Assembly (NCBI GenBank): GCA_903838125.1
Contig: CAILXF010000056.1
Location: forward strand, 1-36,244
Source: an uncultured Pseudomonadota bacterium
Lineage (GTDB): Bacteria > Pseudomonadota > Gammaproteobacteria > Burkholderiales > Methylophilaceae
Reading direction: 5' to 3'
Length of the DNA: 36,244 nucleotides
A model generated the notes under the pieces. The model searched no databases and had not been told where the DNA came from. It saw nothing but the letters and a program-made list of their open reading frames with translations. Positions 8,113 through 14,542 of this stretch are shown here, piece by piece. The position numbers were made by a program, and so were the translations under genes. How positions within the stretch are numbered: position 1 is the stretch's first letter; each line of letters starts with the position of its first letter.

Positions 8113-11100
8113 CTACAGCAATACCTTCTCGATACCACCTTTATTAACGCGCTCAACATATTCCTGCATCCAGTTTTCACCTAAAAGATGCTTAGCCATT
8201 TCAACCACGATATAGTCGGCTTCTATCCCAGTATCTTCCCCATATCGCGACAAACCTTGGAGACAACTAGGGCATGAAGTGAGGATTTTTACTTTTTCTT
8301 CGGGTGCGCCTACTGTTAAACCCATCTTAGTCATGCCTTTTTCCAACTCTTCCTGTTTACGCATTTTGACTTGAGTGGCAATGTCTGGACGGTCAACAGC
8401 AAACGTGCCACTTTCGCCGCAACAGCGATCATTTAACTGCACTTCCGTACCCATTAGCTTATTAGTGACCTCCATAGACTTGTAGGTTTTCATCGGGCTA
8501 TGACATGGCTCGTGGTACATATAACGTGTACCGGATACGCCTTGCAAGCGAACATCTTTCTCCATCAAATACTCATGAATATCAAGCAAGCGGCAACCAG
8601 GGAATATCTTCTCGAACTGGTACTTCTGCAATTGGTCCATACAAGTACCGCAAGAAACAATAACAGTTTTAATATCTAAGTAATTCAGCGTGTTGGCAAC
8701 CCGATGGAATAGTACGCGATTATCAGCTGTAATTTGCTGGCCTTTATCATGGTTTCCACTAGCGGTTTGTGGGTAGCCGCAACATAGATATCCTGGTGGC
8801 AATACCGTAATGGCACCAACCTCATACAACATGGCTTGCGTGGCTAAGCCAACATTTGAGAATAGCCTCTCTGATCCACATCCAGGAAAGTAAAATACCG
8901 CTTCTGAATCTTCGGTCACTTTCTGCGGATTACGAATCACTGGAATCATGCTGTCATCTTCTACACCCAACAATGCGCGTGAAGTTTTAGTCGGCATTGC
9001 CTTGGGCATTGGTCGATTAATAAAATGCACCACTTGTGCTTTGATTTCCGGCTTACCCACTGTGGCTGGCGGTCTAATTTTATCCCGAAGCAACCCAAAC
9101 TTTTTAGCCAAACCATGTGCAAAACTTTGTGCTCGATAACCAATAGTGATCATAAATAAATGTAGAAATTTAATGGTCGCTGGGTCTTTAGCATTTAAAA
9201 ATGCCATGCCCGCAGCCGTCACTGGGTTAAATCTTTTTTTACCTTGCTCACGTAAAAAATTACGCATAGAAATAGACACATCGCCAAAATCAATATCCAC
9301 TGGGCATGGATTTAAGCACTTATGACAGACCGTGCAATGGTCAGCGACATCATTAAATTCATCAAAATGCTTGAGTGAAATGCCGCGGCGAGTTTGCTCT
9401 TCGTATAAAAATGCTTCAATCAAGAGTGATGTGGCTAAAATCTTATTACGAGGGGAATACAAAAGATTGGCACGTGGTACGTGAGTCGTGCACACTGGCT
9501 TACATTTACCACAGCGCAAACAATCACTAATAGAATCAGCAATTTCGCCTATAGCAGACTGCTCCATAATAATGGACTCTTGTTCCAACAAACCAAAGCT
9601 TGGCGTATAGGCATTTTCAAGGCCAGAACCTGCCAAAAGCTTACCTTTATTAAAGTGCCCATTAGGGTCAACTTTATTTTTGTAAGCAGTAAAACTATCA
9701 ATCACCGACTGATCCAAGAACTCCATTTTGGTAATACCAATACCATGCTCACCTGAAATAACGCCATCAAGGCCAGTAGCCAAAGCCATCACACGTGCCA
9801 CTGCGGCATGGGCGGCTTGCATCATTTCATAGTCATCAGAATTCACTGGGATATTGGTATGCACATTACCGTCACCGGCATGCATGTGTAATGCAATGAA
9901 AACTCGGCTCTTCAGTACCTTTTTGTGAATCTCGTCACATCGATCCAATATCTTTTGATATTCACGTCCAGCAAAAATATCTGCCATAGGTCGTTTTAAT
10001 TCGCGTTTCCATGAAATGCGTAAGTTATAGGACTGCACGGCACGGAATATATTTTCGTATTGGCTGAGCGATTCTCCAGCGTTGCCGAGCACAGAAACTG
10101 GCGCATCTAAACTATTAAGAATCAAACTCCAACGTTGACGAAGTTCAGCTATCAACTGCAACGCCATCCCCTGCTTGCTTTTGACCATCTCAGCATCAGC
10201 ATTACCATCTTCATCTGTCTGCAAGGGCAGTTCGCCTTGCATAAAGGCTTCCAATGCATCTACCAGCTTGAGCTTGTTATGAATCGACAATTCAATATTG
10301 ATGCGCTCTATACCGTCTGAGTATTCACCAAGACGCGGCAATGGGATAACTACATCTTCGTTAATCTTAAAGGCATTGGTATGCTTAGCAATAGCCGCAG
10401 TACGCGCACGATCCAACCAAAACTTTTTACGTGCTTCTGCAGATACTGCAATAAAACCCTCGCCATCACGTGCATTACATAAACGCACAATATGAGAAGC
10501 AGCTTCACCTACTGCATTTTCATCATCTGAAGCAATATCCGCGATCAACACCATTTTCGGGCGTTGTTGGCGCGCTGCTTTAGTGGCATAACCTACCGCT
10601 TTAATATAACGCTCATCCATATGTTCTAGACCAGCCATCAGCACGACAGGGTCTTTTTTTGCGGTAGCGTCTAGGTAATCTTTAATTTCAACAATCGCCG
10701 GCACTGCATGTGACACGTTACCGAAAAATTCTAAGGCCACAGTACGCACATGCTTAGGCATACGGTGCAAGATAAAAGTGGCTGAAGTGATTAACCCATC
10801 ACAACCTTCTTTTTGTATACCAGGCAAGCCTGATAAGAATTTATCTGTAACGTCTTTACCCAAACCTACTTTACGGAAACTAGGCCCAGGAATTTCTAAA
10901 ATTCTAGGCTCTGCCAGCAGGGTTTTCATGTCTTCGGCATAACGACTTACTTTAAAGCGTGCCAGTGGTATATCATGAATTTTGCCTAGGTTATGGTCTA
11001 AGCGCTCTACCTCTAGCCACTCAGCATCTGGCGTCACCATGCGCCATGAGGCTAGATTATCTAATGCCGTACCCCACAGCACAGCTTTTTTACCCCCCGC

Positions 11101-11982
11101 ATTCATGGCGACATTGCCACCAATACAAGAAGCATCAGCAGAAGTAGGATCACAAGCAAACTCTAAACCAGCATCACTTGCTGCTTCCATCGCACGGCGC
11201 GTGACCACACCAGCACCGCATTCAATCGTAGCAACCTGTCGAGAGACTCCTGCCAAAGTGCGCATTTGCACACCGCTATGCTGATCTAGTTTTTCAGTAT
11301 TAATCACGGCTGACATTGCCGTTAGTGGAATCGCACCTCCAGTATAACCTGTACCACCACCTCGTGGAATAATAGTTAGTCCCAACTCAATACAGGCGCG
11401 CACCAAGGCGGCAATTTCTTTTTCAGTATCGGGGTTCAAGACCACAAACGGATATTCAACACGCCAATCCGTAGCGTCTGTCACGTGGGATACGCGTGCC
11501 AAACCATCAAATTGCACATTATCTTTACGTGTAATTTTAGTCAATTTCGACAGCGCTTTTTTGCGCAAACTGGCCACTTGCTTAAAGCCAAGCTCAAACT
11601 CAGTAACAGCATGGCGTGCCGCCACAACAAGCTTCAATACTTTTTCATTGCCAGCACTACGCTCATCAATCGCATCAATTCTATGATGCAAAGCATCCAC
11701 TAGTGCTTTACGACGTTTAGGATTTTCAAGCAGATCATCTTGCAAATAAGGGTTACGTGTCACTACCCACAAATCACCTAATACTTCAAACAACATACGT
11801 GCAGAACGACCCGTTTTACGCTCGCCACGTAGTTCGTTTAAAACATTCCAAATCTCCTCTCCTAAAAATCTAATGACAATTTCACGGTCTGAGAAAGAGG
11901 TATAGTTGTAAGGGATTTCGCGCAAGCGCTGTGCTGGCTTGGCTTCTGCATGCAGAATATTGCTAGATAAAGGTGCGTTCAT
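8113..11982 (-). CDS. Very large FAD-linked oxidase / Fe-S protein (GlcD-GlcF-like fusion, DUF3683 type)
   Basis: A 1289-residue fused dehydrogenase, probably oxidising a 2-hydroxy acid such as D-lactate or glycolate and passing electrons to the respiratory chain. Domains in order: N-terminal DUF3683-like region (1-170); PCMH-type FAD-binding domain (about 175-400) with '[15 protein letters not shown]' at 205-219; FAD-oxidase C-terminal domain with '[12 protein letters not shown]' at 699-710 and GEHGIG at 744-749; two CxxCxxCxxxC ferredoxin motifs (Cys821-831 and Cys883-893); two CCG domains with CCG at 1067-1069 and 1187-1189. The architecture is GlcD (or Dld) plus GlcF in one chain. The order is the standard one for a betaproteobacterial family of this size. 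The substrate is inferred only. The start lacks a clear ribosome site. Confidence 0.85.
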
Positions 11983-12025: not shown

Positions 12026-12170
12026 ACATGGTGCCGACGCGCAAATAAGCGTAACAGTTGCATGGTTATTGGCACACCGCTACGTTTCACTCTTCATAAA
12101 AATTGAGTTGAAACGAGAAGCCAGCGTTAAAAAATTAATCATTACTGGAAGAAAACGATACACTAGCAAT

Positions 12171-12677
12171 ATGAATCATTTATTAAAAAAAACATTATTG
12201 CCGCTAATCATTTTAGGCTTACTTACATTTCTAGGCCTGCAACTAAACAATAAAAACAGTGCCCCCAAAGTAGTCTTCACCACTATAGATGGCACTAAAA
12301 TCTCCATGGATAGCCTTGTAGCCTTAATCAACTTTTGGGCCACTAATTGCACAGTCTGCATTAAAGAAATGCCCCAATTAATCAGTACATATAATCAATT
12401 TAACAAACAAGGATTTGCACTCATTGCAGCTGCTATGCCTGATGACCCAACATCGCAGGTACTTAATTACACCAGACAACAAAAATTTCCATTTCCAGTA
12501 ATGCATGATGGCTTATCTGAAATCAGCAGTCAATTTGGTGATGTAAATCTAACGCCAACAGCTTTGATCTTCGATCAGCAAGGTCATTTGCTAGAACAAA
12601 CCATAGGTGAAATAGATTTTAAGGCCTTACATCAACTGCTCAATACTAAGCTTAACAATAAAAAGGATAGCGCCTAA
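12171..12677 (+). CDS. Membrane-anchored TlpA/ResA-like thioredoxin
   Basis: A 168-residue thioredoxin-fold protein tethered to the inner membrane by a helix at about 7-23 and facing the periplasm. The active site is Cys-Thr-Val-Cys in 'FWATNCTVC' (Cys58/Cys61), and the cis-Pro region is 'LTPTALIFDQQG' near 126-137. Such proteins reduce or oxidise disulfides in periplasmic partners, often apocytochromes or copper-site proteins. I start at the ATG at 12171, which opens the membrane anchor; an in-frame TTG at 12069 adds 34 residues that look non-coding. No Shine-Dalgarno precedes the ATG. It overlaps hemJ by one base (TAATG), so the two are coupled. Confidence 0.8.
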   Translation: MNHLLKKTLLPLIILGLLTFLGLQLNNKNSAPKVVFTTIDGTKISMDSLVALINFWATNCTVCIKEMPQLISTYNQFNKQGFALIAAAMPDDPTSQVLNYTRQQKFPFPVMHDGLSEISSQFGDVNLTPTALIFDQQGHLLEQTIGEIDFKALHQLLNTKLNNKKDSA

Positions 12678-13087
12678 TGCTTTGGATTAAGGCTTTTCAT
12701 ATTATATTTGTCACCAGTTGGTTTGCAGGCTTATTTTATTTGCCAAGGCTATTCGTAAACCATGCCATGGTCAGTGATGATGCAACTTTAGAACGCCTAA
12801 AACTCATGGAGTATAAGCTGTATCGCTTCATGTTGCCTTTAGCTATTTTAGCGATTAGCTTTGGTTTATGGTTATGGCTAGGGTACGGTTTTATTGGTGG
12901 CTGGTTACACGCCAAAGTGCTATTGGTCTTGGTGCTAGTGGCTTATCACCTCTACTGCGGCAAACTCGTGCGCGACTTTAAAGTAGGCAAAAATCTGCAT
13001 AGCCATGTCTGGTATCGCTGGTTTAATGAGTTGCCAGTTATCGTGCTGTGTCTTATAGTGATCTTAGTTGAAGTGAAACCATTTTAA
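12677..13087 (+). CDS. hemJ: HemJ-type protoporphyrinogen IX oxidase (UPF0093)
   Basis: A 136-residue protein with four membrane helices. It opens with 'WIKAFHIIFVTSWFAGLFYLPRLF' (read as pieces, residues 3-26), including the conserved His8 and Trp, and ends with 'RWFNELPVIV...VEVKPF', both signatures of the HemJ family. HemJ converts protoporphyrinogen IX to protoporphyrin IX in bacteria that lack HemY or HemG. The ATG shares its A with the stop of the TlpA-like gene. Older annotations call such genes CopD-family. Heme made here would also feed the oxidase cluster at 19.5-28.4 kb. Confidence 0.85.
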   Translation: MLWIKAFHIIFVTSWFAGLFYLPRLFVNHAMVSDDATLERLKLMEYKLYRFMLPLAILAISFGLWLWLGYGFIGGWLHAKVLLVLVLVAYHLYCGKLVRDFKVGKNLHSHVWYRWFNELPVIVLCLIVILVEVKPF

Positions 13088-13126: not shown

Positions 13127-13909
13127 ATGGATATTTTAAATTCCACTTGGTTAATTAAAATGCTGTCAAAAGCAGACGCCACACCACAAGGGCGCATGCT
13201 AAGTCTTTTTGACATTTTAGATGACTGGCTAAACGCGCCTCAGCTTAACTCAGCCATGACGCAACAAACCCTATTATCCAACAATGAAGGCAAAACACTC
13301 CTGATTGCCTACCTCACTGAACAGGCAATAGCTTGTGGGGCTGCTAATCCAGCCATACTCGCTGAGCATTTAGTGCTGATTGCACGCAATGCAGCCCAGC
13401 AATCCATCCATCATCCCAATTGTGGCAGTTTAGCGCATGGCAGGAAAGCTGCTGCTGCGCTAATCTTGGCGCAGACACCGATCATTTGGTCGCCACTAAG
13501 TTTGCTAAATAAACCACGAGTCTATGGAATAGCCGCTAGCTTAATCATATTCCTTGGCACCACTATCCTTCTTTCCCAGGCCTTTATACACAATCATCAA
13601 CATCAGTTAAACATTGCTAAAATTACACATCTGCAACCAGCAAAGTCGATGACGGCAGACTACAAACCAAAAACCTCATTAACAGCAGATGATGCGGCTA
13701 CAATCTACGCCAAGTATGAACAGATGCGTAATGGTACTTGCCAGTTTCCGGAAGCCCTACAAATTCCAGACAAAGATAAAGCGATATATTTAGATAACGT
13801 GGTGGGAGGTAAACTACCCAGCGATGTCGGAGATTTAGCAATTGCGAAATTTTACTTAGAAAAAGTACGATGCAACTACACCCCTATGCTAATGGCGCAT
13901 TCAAAATAA
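13127..13909 (+). CDS. Membrane protein with a TetR-like C-terminal domain and no DNA-binding head
   Basis: A 260-residue protein of no recognised family. Residues 8-113 align by eye, with one 11-residue gap, to residues 65-181 of the TetR regulator encoded immediately downstream: both have WL...L......P......LFD...DW (or EEW)...P, then a 'LxLxxxxxA(A/V)Q' helix and a (R/K)KAA..LI helix in the same register (Lys107/Lys175, Ala108/Ala176, Ala109/Ala177, Leu112/Leu180, Ile113/Ile181). The helix-turn-helix is absent. A membrane helix follows at 131-152, then a ~105-residue tail, probably periplasmic, with Cys205 and Cys249 that could pair. AAGG is only 2 bases from the ATG and GGAG is 14 away, so the start is moderately secure. 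It ends 69 bases before the regulator. Confidence 0.7.
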   Translation: MDILNSTWLIKMLSKADATPQGRMLSLFDILDDWLNAPQLNSAMTQQTLLSNNEGKTLLIAYLTEQAIACGAANPAILAEHLVLIARNAAQQSIHHPNCGSLAHGRKAAAALILAQTPIIWSPLSLLNKPRVYGIAASLIIFLGTTILLSQAFIHNHQHQLNIAKITHLQPAKSMTADYKPKTSLTADDAATIYAKYEQMRNGTCQFPEALQIPDKDKAIYLDNVVGGKLPSDVGDLAIAKFYLEKVRCNYTPMLMAHSK

Positions 13910-13942
13910 CCACCTATTGGCGACCAAAATTTCATTAAATGA

Positions 13943-13972
13943 TTGCTATTAGGCTATACAGGTTAGTATAAT
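13943..13972 (+). promoter_or_regulatory. tetR promoter with a palindrome over the -10; leaderless transcript likely
   Basis: TTGCTA (13943-13948), 18 bases, TATAAT (13967-13972). The predicted transcription start, 7 bases on, coincides with the A of the ATG at 13979, and there is no Shine-Dalgarno. TATAC (13955-13959), 6 bases, GTATA (13966-13970) forms an inverted repeat overlapping the -10, a plausible autorepression operator. Confidence 0.5.
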
Positions 13973-13978
13973 TAAGCC

Positions 13979-14542
13979 ATGTCACCGCTACGCGAAAAAA
14001 TACTCAGCACAGCAAGTCACTTATTCCAAACCCAAGGTATCAACTCGACTGGCGTAGACACTATTGTTGCTGCAGCGGGAACCACTAAAATGACTTTGTA
14101 CAAATACTTTCGAAGCAAAGAGAATTTAATTCTGGAAGTGCTTGAAGAAGGCCATAAAGATTTTCAAGCTTGGTTAAGCGAAAAGCTCAACAGCAACACC
14201 AGTCAACCGAGTGAAAAGTTACAAAAACTATTTGATTTTATTGAAGAATGGGTCACTTCACCCAACTTCCGTGGAATGGGCTTTATCAAGGCTTCTGCTG
14301 AGTTTCCAAGCGAAGATAGCCCTGTGCACCAACTATCTTCTGAGCAATCACGTCAATTTAAGCAATACATTAGCAGCCTCGCCCATGAAGCTCATATTCA
14401 AGATGCAGACGGATTGGCGCTGCAACTTTCTTTGTTGTTTGAAGGTGCGGTGCAGGCCGAACAAATGATACGCGGCTCTGGGGCAATGACTTATGCAAAA
14501 AAAGCCGCTAAAATTTTAATTAACGGCGCTGCGACCCATTAA
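13979..14542 (+). CDS. TetR/AcrR-family transcriptional regulator
   Basis: A 187-residue dimeric repressor-type protein. The N-terminal helix-turn-helix spans about 4-50: 'REKILSTASHLFQTQG', then 'TGVDTIVAAAGTTKMTLYKYFRSKENL' with the classic TLYKYF recognition helix. The ligand/dimer domain (55-185) has an LFDFIEEW helix and terminal helices 'LALQLSLLFEGAVQAEQM' and 'YAKKAAKILI'. Its ligand and targets are unknown. The upstream gene encodes a protein resembling this ligand domain fused to a membrane helix. The downstream gene is a PfkB kinase with its own candidate promoter. A palindrome over its -10 suggests autoregulation, and the mRNA looks leaderless. Confidence 0.88.
   Translation: MSPLREKILSTASHLFQTQGINSTGVDTIVAAAGTTKMTLYKYFRSKENLILEVLEEGHKDFQAWLSEKLNSNTSQPSEKLQKLFDFIEEWVTSPNFRGMGFIKASAEFPSEDSPVHQLSSEQSRQFKQYISSLAHEAHIQDADGLALQLSLLFEGAVQAEQMIRGSGAMTYAKKAAKILINGAATH

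Follow-up and report, generated by a model that had tools for sequence, protein, structure and literature searches.

The genes described here lie in a 36,244-nucleotide stretch of DNA (contig CAILXF010000056.1 of assembly GCA_903838125.1; hereafter the window), which is placed in the Methylophilaceae, near Methylotenera. Two neighbouring plus-strand reading frames are at issue. The first, at 13127-13909, encodes a 260-residue TetR-like protein (here X) that lacks a helix-turn-helix (HTH) and has a membrane anchor, while the second, separated from the stop codon of X by 69 bases, encodes a complete 187-residue regulator (here TetR1). The coordinates and lengths of both frames, as well as the residues that an initial annotation had matched between the two proteins (Trp8/Trp65, LFD, the tryptophan of DW/EEW, and KAA..LI), were all reproduced. 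The features of the locus are as follows:

12069-12677 (+): TlpA/AhpC-TSA-type thioredoxin-like protein, upstream neighbour (Pfam, relatives' loci)
12677-13087 (+): UPF0093 (HemJ-type) membrane protein directly 5' of X (Pfam, relatives' loci)
13127-13909 (+): X (reading frame, relatives in genus genomes, profile alignment, HMM, AlphaFold2 model)
13145-13468 (+): X residues 7-114, TetR ligand/dimerisation-type domain, from the middle of helix 4 to helix 9 (hhalign, HMM, model, Foldseek)
13514-13588 (+): X residues 130-154, single transmembrane helix (AlphaFold2 model, positive-inside count)
13685-13876 (+): X residues 187-250, predicted periplasmic domain (alignment, model)
13739-13741 (+): X Cys205, conserved
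13871-13873 (+): X Cys249, conserved
13955-13970 (+): predicted operator just 5' of TetR1 (pattern match, alignment)
13979-14542 (+): TetR1, complete TetR/AcrR-type regulator (Pfam, NCBIfam)
14000-14140 (+): TetR1 residues 8-54, the HTH, which is the portion that X is without (Pfam)
14168-14524 (+): TetR1 residues 64-182, ligand/dimer domain homologous to X 7-114 (hhalign, HMM)

The gene 3' of TetR1 encodes a PfkB-type kinase. Divergent from the tlpA-hemJ-X run, at 8113-11982 (-), is a gene for a 1289-residue protein resembling a fused FAD-binding and Fe-S oxidoreductase, whose family (66 members) occupies the same position in most loci of the M1 group defined below.

TetR1 is an ordinary member of the TetR/AcrR repressors, with an HTH above cut-off (TetR_N, PF00440; E 1.1e-14, 54.4 bits against a cut-off of 24) and a helical C-terminal domain, which matched TetR_C_13 at E 8.6e-5 (23.3 bits, under the cut-off of 27). 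Its top NCBIfam match was DicD/YjdC (E 2.9e-22, 79.8 bits against a cut-off of 240). X shares the C-terminal domain of this family but is HTH-less and membrane-anchored.

As a single sequence, X matched nothing in Pfam, NCBIfam, or the PDB sequences, which speaks for reading its TetR-like domain as chance or generic helical similarity. So do a PDB profile search, in which all matches were weak, designed helical proteins came first, and one TetR appeared at E 0.23, and a Pfam scan in which 1 of 40 X relatives matched a TetR_C model (E 0.0085). Foldseek E values were weak as well: the AlphaFold2 model of X (mean pLDDT 83) retrieved nothing from the PDB at E ≤0.001, and its two lowest E values (0.09 and 0.11) belonged to sigma-factor chains with probabilities below 0.3. 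Against this reading, the structure matches at a probability of ~1.0 were TetR chains (best E 0.16, about half of the model aligned), and the model of a distant X paralogue also had a TetR as its best match (E 0.08, probability 0.98; none at E ≤0.001). Profile comparisons contradict it more directly. The X and TetR1 families aligned collinearly across the entire domain (hhalign; X 7-114 to TetR 64-182, E 8.8e-9, probability 95.7), and an HMM built from 40 X proteins and no TetR reached the TetR1 of the same genome at E 1.2e-13 over model positions 7-114; among 369 class genomes, its only matches beyond the family were five TetRs, each with an HTH visible by eye. TetR1 as a tblastn query (cut-off 1e-5) likewise matched X relatives at their N-terminus, in 13 of 30 loci (E 9e-6 to 2e-8), although the window's own X was absent among these 13 matches. 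We thus regard chance similarity as scarcely credible.

The model of X contains six helices in TetR order (residues 7-16, 20-35, 44-50, 58-70, 75-95, and 101-116) and, after the membrane helix at 130-154, a small domain in the tail. Profile, HMM, model, and Foldseek comparison all assign X the C-terminal ligand/dimerisation fold of TetR. It begins in helix 4 and has no TetR_N match, and inspection of the open frames upstream of it in 30 loci showed no HTH; the X reading frames counted throughout are those without a match to a TetR-HTH HMM. Decay into a pseudogene is ruled out by the absence of internal stops in 36 of 37 genus genomes. X is a paralogue of the TetR ligand domain whose HTH is gone and which is anchored in the membrane. 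The initial annotation had proposed just this from the sequence alone, including the missing HTH and the appended membrane helix with a cysteine-containing tail, and the profile-profile comparison and the fold of the model bear it out.

Counts of lysine and arginine flanking the membrane helix favoured its N-terminal side in 67 of the 89 relatives, were balanced in 14, and favoured the C-terminal side in 8; this excess makes a cytoplasmic TetR-like domain and a periplasmic tail the most likely topology. The 19-residue hydropathy maximum was at least 1.6 in 80 of the 89 distinct X and below that in nine, whose membrane-helix scores are weak. In the tail, all of 40 diverse X have Cys205 and at least 90% have Cys249, and each of the two sits in a short strand of the model; given this conservation and placement, a Cys205-Cys249 disulfide is likely. 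Lanthanide binding by the tail was considered because of XoxF-like neighbours and was rejected, as no acidic tail residue is invariant between X1 and X2 (the latter a weaker family, described below).

All but one of the 37 genus genomes contained X, in one case as a partial copy at a contig edge; none of 24 genomes from other families did. A sample of 399 genomes of the order contained it in 7 of the 13 from its own family, with a single match beyond the family, a TetR without X-type architecture, and the class sample (369 genomes) beyond the family again held TetRs and no X-type architecture. A contig scan for conserved peptide patterns, which diverged members would escape, confirmed 83 relatives (80 kept), whose record titles were Methylophilaceae or generic (Betaproteobacteria, Proteobacteria, Pseudomonadota, uncultured), plus one Sulfuritalea MAG. 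This last record (locus L066, JAIPCR010000047.1) has a Methylotenera gene order, appears to match a genome of the window's genus, and is probably a mislabelled bin.

A TetR was encoded in the same locus for 87 of 92 X reading frames (89 distinct), a set drawn from loci L001, L040-L054, and L060-L139 that excludes X frames below 200 residues, L002-L039, and loci L046, L052, and L055-L059 (repeats or TetR loci). The pair is therefore conserved in related genomes, and the outcomes that the initial annotation had named as fatal to it (no TetR C-terminal match, or differing folds with an unconserved pair) are not what we found. Among the exceptions, two contigs end 710 and 212 bases past X (L070 and L078), one TetR is cut by the locus end (L109), one genome carries its TetR1 elsewhere (L068), and one locus has none downstream and just 126 bases available upstream (L100). 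The gene after X in L068 (4949-5680) resembles Crp/Fnr regulators. In L100 (139-4888), X is followed on the same strand by a 1324-residue frame, open to the locus end and with hydrophobic segments at its start, a possible rewired partner.

The TetRs fall into three groups, M1 (60), M2 (21), and M3 (3), and X clusters never mix groups. X2, a weaker family that initially appeared as nine low-scoring matches, aligns end to end with X and lies directly 5' of a TetR in 9 of 9 loci. Since M2 and M3 modules sit in gene contexts differing from that of M1, the pairing does not reflect the inertia of one locus, and simple operon inertia is ruled out as its cause by several distinct contexts. Most M2 modules are divergent to a MoxR operon (16 regions), and at four distinct loci (L123, L138/L050, L049, and L054) modules lie directly beside PQQ methanol/ethanol-type dehydrogenases (two above the family cut-off, two cut by the locus end), with the TetR convergent with X at L049 and L138. 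The M3 loci L051 and L053 have a cupin-type gene nearby (family scan in L053) and an X tail with different cysteine spacing.

In a tree of the shared domain, X formed one clade (support 0.99) grouped as sister with the M1 TetR clade (0.986), and six outgroup TetRs fell outside this X and TetR1 grouping. M2 X and M3 X were each one clade, as were all M1 X except one long branch. The tree held all M2 and M3 sequences plus 23 M1 X and 22 M1 TetRs (a third) over 114 columns, and given these few columns, the long branches, and weak deep nodes, it suggests, without going further, a single origin of X by partial duplication.

On one reading, X is an independent membrane sensor or scaffold serving the periplasmic thiol/cytochrome or methanol-oxidation machinery, a TetR duplicate that remains next to its parent TetR1 but no longer touches it. 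M1 X is placed after hemJ in 30 of 30 loci, upstream and apart from the TetR operator rather than downstream of it, an arrangement that leaves room for separate regulation of X and TetR1 and suits this reading. So does a conservation that is not specific to the interface: the mean BLOSUM62 between X and TetR1 (M1) was 1.39 in helix 4, 2.19 in helix 5, and 1.40 in helix 9, and lower, 0.47, in helix 8, so that the dimer interface is not specially marked. The initial annotation had held that the two terminal helices of the TetR dimer interface are kept; both are present in X, but similarity to TetR1 is not focused on helices 8-9, and retention of the dimer interface is plausible. What weighs against an independent X is that, in each of M1, M2, and M3, the TetR beside it belongs to the corresponding group, in varied neighbourhoods and even in the convergent pairs, and that it was lost jointly with TetR1 (see below). 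We consider an independent X unlikely.

In some of the M1 loci, though not in the window, X and TetR1 are separated by an SRPBCC-type (Polyketide_cyc2) gene of opposite orientation, divergent from TetR1 (L069:4821-5351 (-) and relatives, a family of 21 reading frames). Intergenic alignments showed that the region between this gene and TetR1 contains a conserved inverted repeat, TATACAGGTCTGTATA. The SRPBCC-type product has a signal-peptide-like start, and its gene shares the operator region with TetR1. In the window, the corresponding site TATACAGGTTAGTATA at 13955-13970 overlaps a TATAAT -10-like box at 13967-13972. It is the sole window match at ≤3 mismatches, which in itself proves nothing because 22 of 100 shuffles also had one (mean 0.24). 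A site with ≤3 mismatches occurred within 200 bp 5' of 48 of 63 M1 TetRs, and 62 of 63 had one at ≤4; among random 200-bp windows of M1 loci, 2.2% reached ≤3 mismatches. The 63 include near-duplicate loci, and the count is not independent, since the consensus used for scanning came from M1 loci in the first place. The MoxR, dehydrogenase, and co-loss results given below are independent. The M1-type site was absent 5' of all 23 M2 and all 3 M3 TetRs examined, and a related site, AGACAGGTCTGTTC, was found in 15 of 16 MoxR-X2 intergenic regions of M2. M1 TetRs thus have a conserved TATACAGGTCTGTATA-like palindrome as a predicted operator, and which TetR would bind which site we infer from these associations. 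The TATAAT box lies 6 bases 5' of the TetR1 start codon (13967-13979) with no evident Shine-Dalgarno sequence, and for these reasons the TetR1 mRNA may be leaderless.

The position of the predicted site bears on another alternative, that X is a positive partner which either draws TetR1, together with its DNA, towards the membrane or passes it a ligand, the pair then acting as a transmembrane co-activator or co-repressor with no sequestration. The same anatomy and pairing evidence accommodates a positive partner, and in another system recruitment of a promoter to the membrane can activate it (PMC11856585). Overlap of the TetR1 site with a -10-like box is, however, what would be expected of a releasable repressor, and we judge a positive role for X to be quite improbable.

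The operator was scanned at ≤2 mismatches in 14 chosen genomes (the window's own, eight genus members, and five from other genera), yielding 73 strand-wise matches at 51 places, compared with 17 strand-wise matches for the reversed control. All 51 places were inspected, and the gene belonging to each site was judged from the flanking frames rather than from curated annotation. Fifteen of the places precede a MoxR operon and together cover 14 of 14 genomes; the 15th is less certain, being a site of genome G227 in L198 assigned to a MoxR promoter from antisense frames, and the same genome has another MoxR site, L162. Seven places are at the X/TetR module, two precede a small membrane protein, six precede PQQ dehydrogenases, and five precede molybdopterin/formate dehydrogenase genes (four molybdopterin oxidoreductases and one formate dehydrogenase gamma subunit, the latter above cut-off), with the remaining 16 elsewhere, many within genes. 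In L161, L164, and L172 the site overlaps the longest frame and a later start was taken. The PQQ-dehydrogenase matches at these sites are cut by locus ends; four of the six were scanned and fell below the family cut-off, and those at L205 and L206 were assigned by resemblance. For the molybdopterin/formate dehydrogenase places, L171, L201, and L200 were scanned, L200 alone being above cut-off, and L152 and L202 were assigned by resemblance. A small membrane protein adjoins an operator-like site in three genomes (L161:1493-1942, L211:935-1342, and L185:1557-1949), and that of L161 has no family match.

Where readable to its end (L188, L189, L190, L146, and L148), the MoxR operon has the order AAA-DUF58-x-VWA-TPR-like-VWA, which is the mxaRSACKL layout. 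To our knowledge, from a search short of exhaustive, no regulator is known for the mxaRSACKL-type accessory genes in Methylophilaceae. The window's own genome (86% complete) had two places only, at TetR1 and at the MoxR operon, the contig of the latter ending within its fourth gene. One published study describes mxaRSACKL-type operons in two to four copies per Methylophilaceae genome and calls these genes essential for methanol dehydrogenase (PMC4109929). From the recurrent placement of the sites, the X/TetR pair seems to control methanol-oxidation genes.

The six family members of the order sample that lack X are all streamlined genomes (1.3-1.4 Mb); they contain no TetR1 at E ≤1e-10 and have no operator site genome-wide, and each keeps a MoxR homologue at 69-76% identity. 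As they fall in two genera, this co-loss represents one or two events. Counting against a strict co-loss, genome G014 is without X and TetR1 and yet has a one-mismatch site ~140 bases 5' of its MoxR gene; its assembly is fragmented (250 contigs), and for that reason the absence is perhaps an assembly gap. Genome G034 carries X in part, at the edge of a contig, and no TetR1 match there exceeds 42% identity.

The three paralogous modules, the predicted operator and methanol-oxidation regulon, and the co-loss go beyond the initial annotation, which had raised heterodimers and sequestration as a possibility. Alongside the computed homology, architecture, pairing, matching module groups, conserved palindrome, recurrent sites, and co-loss, we propose, as the likeliest of these readings, though one whose truth we hold to be evenly balanced, that X and TetR1 together make up a regulatory system of two proteins acting across the membrane, in which X is a membrane-tethered antagonist. 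TetR1 would bind DNA as a dimer and repress both its own gene and a regulon of methanol/PQQ oxidation, chiefly the MoxR-DUF58-x-VWA-TPR-like-VWA operon. X would have arisen as a partial copy from the TetR lineage, keeping the ligand/dimerisation domain, losing the HTH, and gaining a membrane helix plus a cysteine domain in the periplasm. We infer a contact between the two proteins, with antagonism rather than activation: X may capture TetR1 subunits at the membrane via the common TetR dimer interface and so relieve repression, and the signal, a periplasmic state such as Cys205/Cys249 redox or a ligand, would decide between capture and release.

The closest known parallel is the LytTR Regulatory Systems of Streptococcus mutans (HdrRM and BrsRM), in which the soluble regulator is held in check by a membrane protein encoded with it, several such gene pairs occur per genome, and conserved repeats lie at the operon promoter (PMC6193735). 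The present pair is alike in joining a soluble DNA-binding regulator with a membrane protein, in encoding the two together at the frequency given above, in occurring more than once per genome, and in having conserved repeats at the promoter. It is unlike them in that the regulator is a TetR (TetR_N) rather than a LytTR protein, the membrane partner is homologous to the regulator's own ligand/dimer domain, and the membrane gene comes first. Membrane sequestration is, by its title, the subject of one further paper (PMC8177103). By analogy, the X-TetR1 pair may work like these systems, with inhibition as a proposal, and it is not a member of them.

One-component transmembrane regulators carry a DNA-binding domain and a membrane helix in one chain. 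The present pair resembles them in that the signal presumably crosses the membrane without a kinase, and differs in having two chains, the membrane one without a DNA-binding domain. In ECF sigma/anti-sigma pairs, and among the eukaryotic Id proteins and SHP, a partner without a DNA-binding part pairs with a DNA-binding one; their folds are unrelated to those of X and TetR1. We know of no bacterial TetR case of a partner lacking the DNA-binding part. Among titles, abstract beginnings, and top-ranked results of the open-access literature, no HTH-less membrane-anchored TetR partner was found, nor any such system among those on Methylophilaceae or Methylotenera with TetR, and the word 'TetR' does not occur in the main text of a paper on transmembrane regulators (Demey et al. 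2023, PMC10269533).

TetR regulators are usually taken to be cytoplasmic one-component switches. Tentatively, and short of an even call, we suggest that X and TetR1 may represent a transmembrane sensory system of a new class, for which the name 'TetR regulatory system' would be apt. In it, an HTH-less duplicate of the regulator's ligand/dimerisation domain, with a membrane helix and a periplasmic sensor, would let a periplasmic signal switch a soluble TetR by hetero-oligomerisation at the membrane, and in the Methylophilaceae the system might act as a master switch over the accessory genes of methanol dehydrogenase as well as over PQQ and formate dehydrogenases. If true, a TetR switch would be wired to the periplasm without a kinase, a sigma factor, or proteolysis, and the mxaRSACKL-type accessory genes of the Methylophilaceae would be supplied with a candidate regulator, operator, and regulon.
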